A model generated the notes under the pieces. It was not told the origin of the DNA. It did not search any database and saw nothing but the letters and a program-made list of their open reading frames with translations. Position numbers and translations under genes: made by a program. 64,000 nucleotides of DNA from Rathayibacter caricis DSM 15933 (lineage in GTDB: Bacteria; Actinomycetota; Actinomycetes; Actinomycetales; Microbacteriaceae), in contig NZ_PZPL01000001.1 of the NCBI RefSeq assembly GCF_003044275.1, forward strand, positions 3,038,001 to 3,102,000. Direction: 5' to 3'. Positions 40,039-48,258 of the stretch are shown here, piece after piece; position 1 is the stretch's first letter; each line of letters starts with the position of its first letter.

Positions 40039-40067
40039 TTGACATACTCGAACACATGTTCGAATAT
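40039..40067 (+). promoter_or_regulatory. Promoter of the SOS mutasome operon
   Basis: TTGACA (40039-40044), then a 17-bp spacer and GAATAT (40062-40067). The next likely start codon, ATG at 40074, is 7 bp beyond the -10, which is where transcription should begin. The mRNA is thus probably leaderless. A LexA box fills the spacer. Confidence 0.82.
40048..40063. promoter_or_regulatory. LexA (SOS) box
   Basis: TCGAACACATGTTCGA is a perfect 16-bp palindrome matching the actinobacterial SOS consensus (TCGAAC-N4-GTTCGA). It sits between -35 and -10, so LexA would exclude polymerase. Confidence 0.92.
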
Positions 40068-40073
40068 GGGCAG

Positions 40074-40793
40074 ATGACAGCCTCCTCCCCCACCCTCTCC
40101 GAGGGGACGGCCGAGGCTGCGGAGCCGCTGCTGCGCCAGCTCGCGTCGGTGAAGGAGCTGCAGTCGCGGATCCGCGACATGCAGGCCACCACGCTCGAGA
40201 CGAAGAGCCTGGCGACGCTGCCGGCGTTCACCTCGGTGCTGCCGGGAGGCGCGCTGAAGCAGGGCGCCGCCTACTCGGTCGAGGGGTCCCTGAGCCTCGC
40301 GATGGGGCTGCTCGCGGGCCCGTCCTCCGAGGGGGCGTGGTGCGGGGTCGTCGGCGTGCCCGAGTTCGGCGCCGAGGCGGCGGCCGGCATCGGGATCGAC
40401 CTCGAGCGGCTGGTGCTCGTGCCCGCTCCGGCGGAGCACTGGCTCACCGTCACCGCCGCGCTCGTCGACGTTCTCACCGTCGTGCTGACCCGGCCGCCCG
40501 CCTCCGTCTCCTCGGCCGACGTCTCCCGGCTCGGCGCCCGGCTCCGCCAGCGCGGAGCGGCACTCGTCGTGCTCGGCGAGTGGCCGCAGGCCGAGGCGCG
40601 GCTCAGCATCCGCAGCAGCCGCTGGGAGGGGCTGGGGGCCGGTCACGGCTATCTGCGCTCCCGCGAGGCCCTCGTCGACGTCGTCGGTCGCGCGGGGACC
40701 CGCGTGCGGACCGTGCGGATGAGCATGCCCGGCGCCGACCAGGCCTTCGGAGTGCACCACGAGCACTCGCGCCTGCGCGAACGGGCGGTGTGA
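40074..40793 (+). CDS. ImuA-like mutasome accessory protein
   Basis: 239 residues from the ATG at 40074, chosen because it lies one helical step past the -10 of an SOS promoter and an upstream start would be inside the promoter. The protein has a RecA-like core fold (LPAFTSVLPGGALKQGAAYSVEGSLSLAMGLLA) but no classic Walker A lysine in GGALKQG-type contexts, as in the actinobacterial ImuA' group. It likely joins ImuB and DnaE2 in error-prone translesion synthesis. The stop is 1 bp before the imuB GTG. Confidence 0.8.
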   Translation: MTASSPTLSEGTAEAAEPLLRQLASVKELQSRIRDMQATTLETKSLATLPAFTSVLPGGALKQGAAYSVEGSLSLAMGLLAGPSSEGAWCGVVGVPEFGAEAAAGIGIDLERLVLVPAPAEHWLTVTAALVDVLTVVLTRPPASVSSADVSRLGARLRQRGAALVVLGEWPQAEARLSIRSSRWEGLGAGHGYLRSREALVDVVGRAGTRVRTVRMSMPGADQAFGVHHEHSRLRERAV

Positions 40794-40794
40794 G

Positions 40795-42399
40795 GTGGCG
40801 ACCGCACCCGAGCTGCGCCGCACGATCCTCGTGTGGTGCCCGGACTGGCCGCTGCTCGCCGCGGCGGGCGACGCCGGCCTGCCCGCGGAGGCGCCGCTGG
40901 CGCTCACCGAGAAGAGCCGCGTCTTCGCCTGCTCCCCGACCGCGCGCGCCGAGGGGGTGCGACGGGGCATGCGGATCCGCGAGGCGCAGTCGCGCTGCAC
41001 CGGGCTCACCGTGCTGCCCTACGACCCGGTGCTCGACCACCGGGCGTTCGAGCCGCTCGTGCAGGCGCTGGAGGAGATCACCCCGGGTGTGCAGCTGATC
41101 CGGCCGGGTCTCTGCGCGATCCGCGCCAGAGGCCCCCGCCGCTACTACGGGAGCGAGCGGTCGGCGGCAGAGGCGGTGCTGCGGCGACTGGCCGAGCTCG
41201 GGGTCGACCGGGCCCGCATCGGCATCGCCGACGGGCTCTTCGCCTCCGAGCTCGCCGCCAAGCACTCGGCCGAGGACGTCGCGATCGTGCCCGCGGGGAC
41301 GACCGCGGCGTTCCTCGCGCCGCTCCCCCTCGAGGCGCTCGGCACCGAGGCGGTCGGAGCCGCCGCGACGCGCTCGAAGCCGGTCCGCGGCGAGGACCTG
41401 GTGACCCTCCTGCGCCGGCTGGGCGTGCGGACGCTGGGCGCCTTCGCCGCGCTGCCGGCCGAGGACGTCGCCGCCCGGTTCGGACCGGACGGGGCCCGGT
41501 CCCATCTCCTGGCCCGCGGGGCCGAGACCGAGGCGGTCGTGCCGCGCCTGCCTCCCGAGCGGCTCGACCGGTCGCTCGAGTTCGAGCCCCCGCTCGACCG
41601 CATCGACCAGGCCGCCTTCGCCTTCCGGATCCCCGCGGAGGAGTTCGTCGCGGGGCTCACCCGGGCGCAGCTGGTGGCCACCGCGATCCGCATCGACGTC
41701 ACCAGCGACCGGGGCGAGCTCTCCTCGCGCAGCTGGCTGCATCCGCGCTGGTTCACCCCGGGCGACGTGCTCGACCGCGTGCGCTGGCAGCTGCAGGGCA
41801 GCGGGGCGATCGACACGGGCCTGGGCTCCCCGATCGCGCGCATCGCCGTGGAGCCGGAGGCGGTGGACGCGATCGGGAACCACGAGCAGGGCCTCTGGGG
41901 CACCGCCCCCGAGGAACGGGTCCACCACGGTCTCAGCCGCGTGCAGAGCATGCTCGGGCACGAAGCGGTCGTGACGGCGTCGATCGGCGGCGGCCGGGCG
42001 CTCCGCGATCGGCATCACCTCGTCCCCTGGGGCGACCGCGAGCCGGGCGATGCCCGGCCCAAAGGACTGCCGTGGCCGGGATCGCTCCCGCCGCCCCACC
42101 CGCCCACGGTGTTCACCGAGCCGGTGGCGGCACTCGTGCGGGGTCCGCGCGGGGAGCCCGTGTCGGTGGACGACCGCGGGTCCCTCGTCTCGGTCCCCGC
42201 CTACTTCACTCCCGGCACCTCGCAGGCCCGGCTCGAACCGGTGGCCGGCTGGGCGGGACCGTGGCCCGTCGACGAGCGCTGGTGGGACGCGCGGACCGCC
42301 ACCCGCTACGACCGCTTCCAGGTGGTCGACGCGGCCGGGACCGCCTGGCTCCTGGTCTGCCGCGACGGGGAGTGGGCCGCCGAGGCCCGGTACGACTGA
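40795..42399 (+). CDS. imuB: ImuB, catalytically dead Y-family polymerase homologue
   Basis: 534 residues. The Y-family fold is visible: ILVWCPDWPLLAA at the start, KSRVFACSPTARAEGVRRGM, ITPGVQLIRPGLCAIRARGP and LGVRTLGAFAALPAEDVAARF (helix-hairpin-helix). The usual metal-binding Asp at the start is replaced in CPDWP, so ImuB should not polymerise. It bridges the beta clamp and DnaE2. It is translated right after the ImuA-like gene; the C-terminal 120 residues are lineage-specific. Confidence 0.9.
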   Translation: MATAPELRRTILVWCPDWPLLAAAGDAGLPAEAPLALTEKSRVFACSPTARAEGVRRGMRIREAQSRCTGLTVLPYDPVLDHRAFEPLVQALEEITPGVQLIRPGLCAIRARGPRRYYGSERSAAEAVLRRLAELGVDRARIGIADGLFASELAAKHSAEDVAIVPAGTTAAFLAPLPLEALGTEAVGAAATRSKPVRGEDLVTLLRRLGVRTLGAFAALPAEDVAARFGPDGARSHLLARGAETEAVVPRLPPERLDRSLEFEPPLDRIDQAAFAFRIPAEEFVAGLTRAQLVATAIRIDVTSDRGELSSRSWLHPRWFTPGDVLDRVRWQLQGSGAIDTGLGSPIARIAVEPEAVDAIGNHEQGLWGTAPEERVHHGLSRVQSMLGHEAVVTASIGGGRALRDRHHLVPWGDREPGDARPKGLPWPGSLPPPHPPTVFTEPVAALVRGPRGEPVSVDDRGSLVSVPAYFTPGTSQARLEPVAGWAGPWPVDERWWDARTATRYDRFQVVDAAGTAWLLVCRDGEWAAEARYD

Positions 42400-42462: not shown

Positions 42463-45400
42463 ATGGGCTGGAACAACCCGCCGATCCCCTGGTCGGAGTT
42501 CGAACGGCGCCTTTCCACCGGCCGCCGGGCCGACGGCACGGTGGTCCGGGGCGACGGAGGGGACAGCCCGGCCTGGTCGCACAAGCGGCCGGCCTACTCC
42601 GCGGGCGACGACGTGCGCTCCCCCGACCTGAAGGTGCCCTACGCCGAGCTGCACGCGCACTCCAACTTCAGCTTCCTCGACGGCGCCAACCGCCCCGAGC
42701 AGATGGTCGAGGAGGCGGTGCGCCTGGGCATCGACACCCTCGCGCTGACCGACCACGACGGCCTCTACGGGATCGTCAGGATGGCCGAGGCGGCGCAGGG
42801 CCACCCCGTCCGGACCGCCTTCGGGGCCGAGCTCTCGCTCGGGCTCCGCACCCCGCAGAACGGCATCGCCGATCCCGAGGGCTCGCACCTGCTCGTCCTC
42901 GCCCGCCGCGAGGAGGGCTACCACCGACTGGCCCGCGCCCTGACCACCGCCCAGCTCGCGGGAGCCGAGAAGGGCAAACCGAGCTACGACCTCGAGGAGC
43001 TCGCCCGCGCGGCGGACGGGCACTGGATCGTGCTCACCGGCTGCCGCAAGGGCGCGGTGCGCCAGGCGCTGGTCGCCGAGGGCGAGGCGGCGGCCGAGGC
43101 CGAGGTGCGCGAGCTCGTGCGCCTCTTCGGGGCGGCGAACGTGCTCGTCGAGCTCTACGACCACGGCGATCCGCTCGCCTCCCTGCACAACGACGCCCTG
43201 GCGGTCATCGCCGAGCGGCTGCGGCTGCGGGTGGTGGCCACCGGGAACGTGCACTACGCCCGACCCGAGGACCGTCCCCTGCAGACCGCGCTGTCCGCCG
43301 TCCGCGCCCGGCGCAGCCTCGAGGAGATGGACGGCTGGCTCCCCGCGGCGGCGGGCGCCCACCTGCGCTCCGGCGCCGAGATGGCCGAGAGGTTCGCGCG
43401 CTACCCCGGCTCCGTCGAGAACACCGTCCGCGTCGCGGACGAGATCGCCTTCGAACTCGGGAAGGTCCGCCCCCGTCTCCCCCGCCAGGACGTCCCGGAG
43501 GGGCACACCCCCATGAGCTGGCTCCGCGAGCTCGTGCACCGGGCCGTCCCGCAGAAGTACCCGGGAGCCGACTCCGACGTGCTCGAGCGGCTCGAGAAGG
43601 AGCTCGCGGTCATCGAGGCGAAGGACTTCCCCGGCTACTTCCTGATCGTGCACGACATCGTGCACTTCGCGAAGGGGCAGGGGATCCTCTGCCAGGGCCG
43701 GGGATCCGCCGCCAACTCGGCGGTCTGCTACGTCCTGGGCATCACCGCGGTCGACTCGATCTTCTACGACCTCCCGTTCGAGCGGTTCCTCTCGAGCATC
43801 CGCGACGAGGAGCCCGACATCGACGTCGACTTCGACTCGGAGCGGCGCGAGGAGGTCATCCAGCACGTCTACGAGAAGTACGGGCGCCTGAACGCCGCGC
43901 AGGTGGCCAACGTGATCACCTACCGGCCCAAGTTCGCGGTCCGGGACATGGCGAAGGCCCTCGGCTACAGCCCCGGGCAGCAGGACGGCTGGTCGAAGCA
44001 GGTCGAGGCGTGGGGGGCCATCACCGAGAGCACCGACCACGACATCCCCGACGACGTCGTGGCCCTCGCCACCCGCGTCCTCGGCGCACCCCGGCACCTC
44101 GGCATCCACTCCGGCGGCATGGTCCTCACCGACCGCCCCGTCGGCGAGGTCTGCCCGATCGAGCCGGCACGGATGGAGAAGCGGACCGTCCTGCAGTGGG
44201 ACAAGGACGACTGCGCCTGGATGGGCCTGGTGAAGTTCGACCTGCTCGGGCTCGGGATGCTCGCCGCCCTGCAGTACACCTTCGACCTCGTCGCCGAGCA
44301 CGTCGGCGAGCAGTGGGACCTCTCCACGATCCCCCGAGAGGAGAAGGGCGTTTACGACCAGCTCTGCCGGGCCGACTCCATCGGCGTGTTCCAGGTCGAG
44401 AGCCGCGCCCAGATGGGCACCCTGCCGCGCCTGCAGCCGCGCCGCTTCTACGACCTGGTGATCGAGGTCGCGCTGATCCGGCCGGGCCCCATCCAGGGAG
44501 GCGCGGTGCACCCCTACATCCGCCGCAAGCTCGGCGAGGAGCCGGTCACCTACCAGCACCCCCTGCTCGTCACCCCGCTCAAGCGGACCCTGGGCGTCCC
44601 GCTGTTCCAGGAGCAGCTGATGCAGGTCGCGGTCGCGGTCGGCGACTGCAACGCCGAGGATGCCGATCTCCTCCGGCGCGCGATGGGCTCCAAGAGGGGG
44701 ACGGAGAAGATCGAGACGCTGCGCGAGCGGCTCTACCAGGGCATGGCGCGCAACGGCATCACGGGCGAGGTCGCGGACGACATCTACACGCGGATCCAGG
44801 CCTTCGCCAACTTCGGCTTCGCCGAGAGCCATGCGATCAGCTTCGCCCTGCTCGTCTACGCGAGTGCCTGGCTGCGGCTGCACTACCCGGCGGCGTTCAC
44901 CGCGGCGCTGCTCCGCGCCCAGCCCATGGGCTTCTACGCCCCGCACACCCTCGTGGCCGATGCGCGCCGGCACGGGGTGCGCGTCGAGTCCCCCGACGTC
45001 AACCGCTCGCTGCCCCACCCCGGCCTCGAGGCCGCACAGGACGCGCCTCCCCGGCGTCGGGGCGGGGCCGGCTACGGGAGCGAGGAGTGCCTGGCCGTCC
45101 ACCAACCGCCGACCGGTCTCTTCGACCGCACGGAGCCCTTCCACACCGACGACCACCGCCGCGACGCGGGCTTCGTGATCCGCCTCGGGCTCTCGGGGGT
45201 GAAGGGGATCGGCGACGCGCTCGCCCAGCACATCGTGGCCGAGCGCGAGCGCGGCGGCGCCTACGCGAGCATGTCCGACCTCTCGCGACGGGTCGGGCTG
45301 AACGCGACCCAGCTCGAAGCGCTCGGAGCCGCGGGGGCCTTCGATACCCTCGGGCTCGACCGCCGCCAGGCGCTGTGGGAGGCGGGCACCGCCGCCGCCG

Positions 45401-45876
45401 ACCGCGAGGAGTTCCTGCCCGGATCCGTCGTCGCCGTGCAGCCTCCGCTGCTGCCGATGCTCTCGGCGCAGGAGCGCGTCGTCTTCGACTTCTGGGCCAC
45501 CGGGATCTCCCCCGACGACCATCCGCTCCGGCACCTCCGCGCCGATCTCCGAGCGCGCGGCGCGCGGTCCACGGCCGACCTGCCGGGCACCTCCTCCGGC
45601 ACCCGGATCGAGGTGGCCGGCGTGGTGATCCACCGCCAGCGTCCCTCCACAGCCGGCGGAGTGACCTTCATGAACCTCGAGGACGAGCACGGGATCCTCA
45701 ACGTGATCTGCTCCGTCGGAGTATGGAACCGCTACCGGCGGATCGCCCGCGAGGCGCCCGCCCTCCTCGTGCGGGGCATCCTCGAGCGCTCCGAGGAGGG
45801 CGTCACCAACCTCCTCGCCGACCGCTTCGAACCCCTCTCGGTCGGCGCCCGCACGACCTCCCGCAACTTCCGATGA
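42463..45876 (+). CDS. dnaE2: Error-prone DNA polymerase III alpha-type DnaE2
   Basis: 1137 residues. An N-terminal PHP domain (AELHAHSNFSFLDGANRPEQ, ALTDHDGLYG) is followed by the polymerase: GRGSAANSAVCYVLGI, EEPDIDVDFDSERREEVI with the catalytic Asp triad, HLGIHSGGMVL and the ANFGFAESHAISFALLVY palm/fingers. A C-terminal OB fold (VVIHRQRPSTAGGVTFMNLE) is present. DnaE2 makes damage-induced mutations with ImuB. AAGGAG precedes the ATG, 63 bp after imuB. Confidence 0.96.
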   Translation: MGWNNPPIPWSEFERRLSTGRRADGTVVRGDGGDSPAWSHKRPAYSAGDDVRSPDLKVPYAELHAHSNFSFLDGANRPEQMVEEAVRLGIDTLALTDHDGLYGIVRMAEAAQGHPVRTAFGAELSLGLRTPQNGIADPEGSHLLVLARREEGYHRLARALTTAQLAGAEKGKPSYDLEELARAADGHWIVLTGCRKGAVRQALVAEGEAAAEAEVRELVRLFGAANVLVELYDHGDPLASLHNDALAVIAERLRLRVVATGNVHYARPEDRPLQTALSAVRARRSLEEMDGWLPAAAGAHLRSGAEMAERFARYPGSVENTVRVADEIAFELGKVRPRLPRQDVPEGHTPMSWLRELVHRAVPQKYPGADSDVLERLEKELAVIEAKDFPGYFLIVHDIVHFAKGQGILCQGRGSAANSAVCYVLGITAVDSIFYDLPFERFLSSIRDEEPDIDVDFDSERREEVIQHVYEKYGRLNAAQVANVITYRPKFAVRDMAKALGYSPGQQDGWSKQVEAWGAITESTDHDIPDDVVALATRVLGAPRHLGIHSGGMVLTDRPVGEVCPIEPARMEKRTVLQWDKDDCAWMGLVKFDLLGLGMLAALQYTFDLVAEHVGEQWDLSTIPREEKGVYDQLCRADSIGVFQVESRAQMGTLPRLQPRRFYDLVIEVALIRPGPIQGGAVHPYIRRKLGEEPVTYQHPLLVTPLKRTLGVPLFQEQLMQVAVAVGDCNAEDADLLRRAMGSKRGTEKIETLRERLYQGMARNGITGEVADDIYTRIQAFANFGFAESHAISFALLVYASAWLRLHYPAAFTAALLRAQPMGFYAPHTLVADARRHGVRVESPDVNRSLPHPGLEAAQDAPPRRRGGAGYGSEECLAVHQPPTGLFDRTEPFHTDDHRRDAGFVIRLGLSGVKGIGDALAQHIVAERERGGAYASMSDLSRRVGLNATQLEALGAAGAFDTLGLDRRQALWEAGTAAADREEFLPGSVVAVQPPLLPMLSAQERVVFDFWATGISPDDHPLRHLRADLRARGARSTADLPGTSSGTRIEVAGVVIHRQRPSTAGGVTFMNLEDEHGILNVICSVGVWNRYRRIAREAPALLVRGILERSEEGVTNLLADRFEPLSVGARTTSRNFR

Positions 45877-45935
45877 CCACGGCCACCCGGCGACGACCGC
45901 TCCCGCGATCGCACGCTCCACGAGAAAGCGATCCC

Positions 45936-46376
45936 ATGACGACCACCCACTCCGCCGGTCCGCTCCCGCACCTGGACGCGCCGCTGCTCGACGACCGCGA
46001 TCTGCGCGATCGCGTCACCTCCCTCATCGGCCCGGCCTACCGGCGCGCGCTCTGGCCGATCCTGCTCGACCGGGCCGGATTCCAGCTGCCGATCCTCTAC
46101 CCCGTCGACGGGCTGCCCGTGCATCCCGACGAGGAGCGCACCGAGCGGATCGTCGCGACGCTCGCCAAGGCCGTCGCCCACCACGAGGTCGGCTCCCTCG
46201 CCTTCGCGCTCGAGCGTCCCGGCCGGGCCTTCCTCGGCGAGACCGACCGGGTGCTCGCCCGCTACCTCGCCGCGGCGTGCCACCGGCGGGCGATCCCCCT
46301 GCGCGCGCTGCTGCTGGTGCACGACGAGGGCGTGCGCGTCGTCGCCGAGGCCGAGTACACGGCCTCGATCCGCTGA
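45936..46376 (+). CDS. Uncharacterised protein encoded at the end of the SOS mutasome operon
   Basis: 146 residues from ATG 45936 (weak GAGAAAG ribosome site). An in-frame ATG at 45873 overlapping the dnaE2 stop (ATGA) would give 167 residues and translational coupling. Features seen are a helical N-terminus, WPILLDRAGFQLPILYPVDG, a centre with HHEVGSLAFALERPG and an end with LLLVHDEGVRVVAEAEY. The repeated beta-strand and His/Asp pattern recalls a small alpha/beta nuclease- or JAB-like fold, but no motif is secure. No function is claimed. Placement makes it a candidate partner of DnaE2. Confidence 0.68.
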   Translation: MTTTHSAGPLPHLDAPLLDDRDLRDRVTSLIGPAYRRALWPILLDRAGFQLPILYPVDGLPVHPDEERTERIVATLAKAVAHHEVGSLAFALERPGRAFLGETDRVLARYLAAACHRRAIPLRALLLVHDEGVRVVAEAEYTASIR

Positions 46377-46414: not shown

Positions 46415-46446
46415 GAGGGACGACCCGCCGAGGCGAGCCGTCCCTC
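46415..46446. terminator. Bidirectional terminator between SOS operon and treZ
   Basis: GAGGGACG pairs with CGTCCCTC (8 bp) around a loop that itself contains CGCC/GGCG. It lies in the 85-bp gap between convergent transcripts. Confidence 0.6.
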
Positions 46447-46461
46447 TCCGAGCGATCGGGG

Positions 46462-48258
<1,797 letters not shown>

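Follow-up and report, generated by a model that had tools for sequence, protein, structure and literature searches.

PMC10421592 describes the mutasome cassette as minimally ImuA', ImuB, and DnaE2. The same three genes stand behind a LexA-type palindrome in the 64,000-nt stretch of Rathayibacter caricis DSM 15933 analyzed here (the window), which, compared with that three-gene cassette, adds a fourth gene behind dnaE2 at 45936..46376, hereafter called Q. YolD, too, is a small protein whose gene neighbours that of a damage-inducible polymerase, its co-occurrence with Y-family polymerases having three exceptions among 207 cases (PMC6511836); Q, in contrast, is a different protein and co-occurs only loosely with dnaE2. 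The literature searched, whose scope left out most subscription papers, contains no description of Q or of a similar fourth imu-operon gene, and no work on Rathayibacter with dnaE2; papers retrieved for RadC in Microbacteriaceae look unconnected, judging from their titles. We find that Q is a real, conserved gene with a fixed place in Rathayibacter and a family of relatives, and that its product is predicted to adopt a RadC-type JAB/MPN fold lacking the zinc-ligand histidines.

Full-length RadC has an N-terminal helix-hairpin-helix (HhH) region, and to our knowledge the function of RadC is still unsettled. PMC300881 called it unknown in 2003, and quotes the JAMM zinc motif (E, HxH, D). On the predicted model, Q shares the JAB/MPN fold of RadC (PF04002; structure 2qlc), and the match to 2qlc spans residues 12-142 of 146. 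Q differs from RadC in that the JAMM motif is not kept, both zinc-ligand His being replaced as read from a sequence alignment, not from superposed side chains, and in that Q itself has no Pfam RadC match at E 1; one of 57 Q relatives matches this profile (E 0.039). The Pfam search with Q also gave no match to an HhH region. The second family to be compared, DUF4192 (PF13830), occurs in the same genomes as Q, R. caricis included, and differs in that its profile runs to 321 positions, the second half of which has no counterpart in Q. Neither Q itself nor, at E 0.01, the 31 Q relatives from outside Microbacteriaceae match Pfam DUF4192, and a profile of Q gives a weak, collinear alignment to the N-terminal part of four DUF4192 proteins.

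The RadC link depends on the predicted model, because the sequence matches are weak and DUF4192 scores slightly better. Since DUF4192 is by sequence at least as near to Q as RadC, our claim concerns the fold and does not place Q in either family; both this fold and the loss of the zinc ligands are well-supported predictions. The first-pass annotation had called the protein unrecognised, which still holds for Pfam RadC and DUF4192, and no longer holds for the fold, because structure prediction, which it had suggested as a check, gave the RadC-like JAB/MPN model. Two other sets of matches were dismissed as chance: seven weak ones from a PDB search with the Q profile, the best of which covers 35 columns of a ryanodine-receptor chimera (E 0.0025), and a PreAtp-grasp Pfam match (E 0.11 for Q; 3/57 relatives, best 0.0026). 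Elsewhere in the R. caricis genome, a divergent RadC domain (L211:1501-1830, G000:C1:886336-886665; Pfam 3e-14) keeps His-x-His.

Q is carried by all 15 Rathayibacter genomes searched, and in each of them it is the next gene after dnaE2, in the same orientation, with an opposite-strand gene which we take to be of the treZ type on its other side. Its dN/dS values are 0.10-0.33 for 15 pairs among six species. The features of the locus are as follows.

40048..40063, no strand assigned: LexA-type SOS palindrome TCGAACACATGTTCGA, a perfect match to TCGAACNNNNGTTCGA
40074..40793, + strand: imuA' (NCBIfam repair_Rv3395c, 1.8e-53), its start set after the SOS palindrome, with a longer frame from 40026
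40795..42399, + strand: imuB, Y-family homologue, named by position and weak Y-family matches (Pfam IMS 9e-13)
42463..45876, + strand: dnaE2, error-prone DNA polymerase (NCBIfam PRK05672, 1449 bits)
45873..45935, + strand: dnaE2 stop overlap and spacer, with an alternative ATGA-overlap start (167-aa form)
45936..46376, + strand: gene Q, last of the operon, 146 aa, predicted RadC fold lacking the JAMM histidines
46415..46446, no strand assigned: inverted repeat (15 nt, 87% complementary) separating Q from its convergent neighbour, a possible two-way terminator
46462..48258, - strand: convergent neighbour, presumably treZ-type

Q has two candidate starts, and both frames claimed in the first-pass annotation are present: one opens at 45873 and encodes 167 aa, the other at an internal ATG at 45936 and encodes 146 aa, both ending at 46376. 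The second start is preceded by purine-rich sequence resembling a Shine-Dalgarno site (GAGAAAG, or this with a single change), nearly identical in 13 of the 15 Rathayibacter species, and this start yields an N-terminus of the length usual for the family. We take the 146-aa form as the probable main product. A longer or translationally coupled product may also be made, because the ATGA-overlap start, found in 13/15 species (G009 has CTGA and G012 TAA), is in frame with Q in 12 of these 13 across six spacer lengths; in G011 it is out of frame. The dnaE2-Q gaps measure 41-74 nt over the 15 genomes. Two side observations concern these sequences: the spacers of G009 and G012 (L063, L065) share a segment with TGTGGATAA, which we take to resemble a DnaA box and which occurs once per 10-kb locus, and the R. 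tanaceti Q (L018:6001-6408) stops at residue 135, about ten residues early, within the variable C-terminal tail.

TCGAACACATGTTCGA is the window's sole perfect match to TCGAACNNNNGTTCGA, which we take to be the LexA/SOS consensus, and the whole R. caricis genome (G000) holds 4 such sites. The exact 16-mer is present in 14/15 Rathayibacter genomes. In 13/15, a hand comparison of positions places it on the strand of Q, some 6 kb upstream; it is on another contig in G009 and absent from G012. These counts, together with the dnaE2-Q order in 15/15 genomes, bear out the position first assigned to Q as last gene after imuA-imuB-dnaE2. Perfect SOS palindromes per genome vary widely in the genus (12 in G009, 4 in G000, 1 in G012). 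Between 45700 and 46500 we found no sigma-70-like promoter and no strict-type terminator, with scans that are weak for actinobacteria, and from this we infer that dnaE2 and Q are co-transcribed. That Q would be SOS-induced is suggested by three features: the palindrome, the narrow spacing from dnaE2, and the absence of a promoter-like site. A terminator had also been proposed behind Q: the 15-nt inverted repeat at 46415-46446 agrees with this and remains a candidate only, because no strict terminator was called and its predicted folding is not stronger than that of shuffled controls (z -0.26).

Q was first thought to be possibly lineage-specific, a view that we reject. In 299 Microbacteriaceae genomes, sampled evenly out of a larger set, relatives occur in at least 133 genomes and 44/85 genera, the count being a lower bound because the search used a single sequence. 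A profile search finds them in 40/198 genomes of the order, 34 of these outside Microbacteriaceae. Q therefore belongs to an uncharacterised small-protein family of Rathayibacter's order, with members of about 120-190 aa as read here. In the family tree (150 rows, 176 before removal of near-copies; 141 columns; 51/147 inner branches open), the Rathayibacter copies beside dnaE2 group together in a single clade (SH-aLRT 96; 7 rows once near-copies are removed), and the Q proteins of two divergent Rathayibacter species are only 45 and 48% identical to that of the window. G009 carries a second copy (L064) that shares 36% identity with the window's Q, sits apart from dnaE2, and falls on a separate branch.

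Inactive MPN domains act as non-catalytic binding modules. Our preferred reading, to which we give a probability of roughly 0.45, is that Q is a RadC-fold module of this kind, made in the SOS response in Rathayibacter, with a family-wide job that does not depend on DnaE2. One copy would have landed behind dnaE2 before the sampled Rathayibacter species diverged and stayed there, as the 15/15 adjacency and the single clade suggest. Its transcription would start at the LexA-controlled imuA promoter and run on through dnaE2, perhaps with translational coupling. The protein, which we infer to lack catalysis, may dock on a partner via the conserved Trp40, Glu93-Arg94, Asp104, and Gly132, and in Rathayibacter its job would be tied to DNA damage.

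Several results weigh against this reading. The Q-RadC profile-profile match is weak (probability 9.7%, E 0.0033, one comparison), and the comparison with DUF4192 is slightly better (E 0.0016, probability 16%), this family also being matched by 2/57 Q relatives, the best at E 8e-5. The divergent species G009 and G012 have no perfect SOS palindrome near the operon. Moreover, Glu93 is not conserved outside Microbacteriaceae (8/34), and an altered active site would equally account for Glu93-Arg94-Asp104 being so strictly conserved.

A plausible alternative, which we hold at somewhat less than even odds, is that Q rides behind dnaE2 as a passenger, its job unrelated and the same as elsewhere, and its place reflecting inherited gene order and not function. 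In none of the 126 non-Rathayibacter genomes covered (of 127 carriers; the G082 locus has no match to the Q model) did the gene calls place dnaE2 or imuB within about 5 kb of Q, genes being called by a simple script and several loci ending at contig ends. No neighbour of Q is retained across most genera. Against this explanation stand the dnaE2-Q adjacency in all 15 Rathayibacter species, including the two whose Q proteins show the 45 and 48% identity given above, and a spacer that preserves the reading frame in nearly all species with the ATGA overlap.

Some neighbourhoods of Q in Microbacteriaceae contain genes of repair type. Chosen families of this kind occur within about 5 kb of Q in 45/129 Microbacteriaceae genomes (13/43 genera) and adjoin it in 23/129 (7/43 genera, Rathayibacter included). 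The set comprises RecQ-like, SbcC, SbcD, DinB, AlkB-like, DnaE2, ImuA, ImuB, and the helicase beside dinB, with domains from Pfam, 'RecQ-like' and 'AlkB-like' being our own names; it was picked after the neighbours had been seen and has no random-position control. None of the 34 Q loci outside Microbacteriaceae lies near any tested repair-type gene, which also fits a passenger. We reject a general rule that the family sits by DNA-repair genes, on account of these 34 loci and the post hoc choice of families. Because the list was drawn up afterwards and gene order is inherited, such neighbourhoods are not evidence of a repair role, and we treat the pattern as mostly inherited synteny. No SOS box before Q relatives elsewhere was trusted, allowing up to two mismatches. 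In genus g8, a one-mismatch SOS palindrome, TCGAACATATGTTCTA at L046:6056-6071 and also in L025 and L026, and TCGAACATGTGTTCTA in L027, lies directly before a gene for an AlkB-like 2OG-Fe(II) oxygenase that is convergent with Q.

The proposal of the first-pass annotation, that Q is a mutasome component, corresponds to a reading in which the Rathayibacter mutasome has Q as a genuine fourth subunit, or is regulated by it, through binding to ImuB, ImuA', or DnaE2. The fixed place behind dnaE2 throughout the genus and the SOS site upstream in most species favor it, as does the co-occurrence with dnaE2. With dnaE2 called at E 1e-200 (212/299 Microbacteriaceae genomes), 113 genomes have both genes, 20 Q only, 99 dnaE2 only, and 67 neither, an association above chance (odds ratio 3.8, Fisher p 1.6e-6) that is uncorrected for kinship and genome size. 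In g68, dnaE2 lies 7.6 kb from Q in G242 and imuA about 5 kb from it in G144. Furthermore, the 12 genomes of g5 and g36 have no dnaE2 match and carry Q near dinB in 12/12; the helicase and dinB genes near Q there are ones found behind dnaE2 in certain other genera. Of 25 dnaE2 flanks from other genera, 12 contain a DEAD/ResIII-type helicase gene that is convergent with dnaE2 at a distance of up to about 4 kb (L249, L251, L253, L257-L259, L262, L265-L267, L271, L272), with dinB beyond it in four of these within the stretch covered.

Nevertheless, co-occurrence is not obligate: 20/133 Q carriers have no dnaE2 match at the above threshold, which is also what a passenger would give, and 99/212 dnaE2 carriers have no Q match in the single-sequence search. 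We also examined 26 hand-picked dnaE2 3' flanks (18 from Q carriers; the other 8 belong to genomes with no Q match, and one of these was dropped for lack of a dnaE2 piece) and found no Q relative in the remaining 25, of 3-4 kb each and all from other genera. The conserved adjacency expected in dnaE2 3' neighbourhoods is thus found within Rathayibacter (15/15) and in none of these flanks. Together with the 126 loci lacking a nearby dnaE2 or imuB, these results do not bear out Q as a mutasome component; a tie of Q to mutagenesis is possible, though unproven, and a true fourth subunit or regulator appears unlikely. Equally improbable in our judgment is the more elaborate proposal that Q, as a RadC-fold protein lacking the JAMM site, came to serve the Rathayibacter mutasome exclusively, as an SOS-induced fourth subunit or as a brake, after capture from a family residing by DNA-repair genes in several Microbacteriaceae lineages.

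A further reading makes Q an enzyme, either metal-independent or differently metal-dependent, whose active site was rebuilt from Glu93, Arg94, Asp104, and His129 near the old JAMM face. It would fit the conserved columns among 142 family rows (Glu93 in 142, Arg94 in 139, Asp or Glu104 in 138, His129 in 117), but seems very improbable, given that outside Microbacteriaceae His129, like Glu93, is not kept (34 rows), and that Glu93-Arg94 could equally be structural.

Through this analysis, an unnamed actinobacterial protein family gains a conserved signature as well as a likely fold, and Rathayibacter emerges as a genus in which a member of this family stands in the SOS mutagenesis operon. A RadC relative lacking the metal site and fixed in an apparently inducible operon offers a handle on what this fold does, and the idea of an extended mutasome becomes testable by a single deletion.
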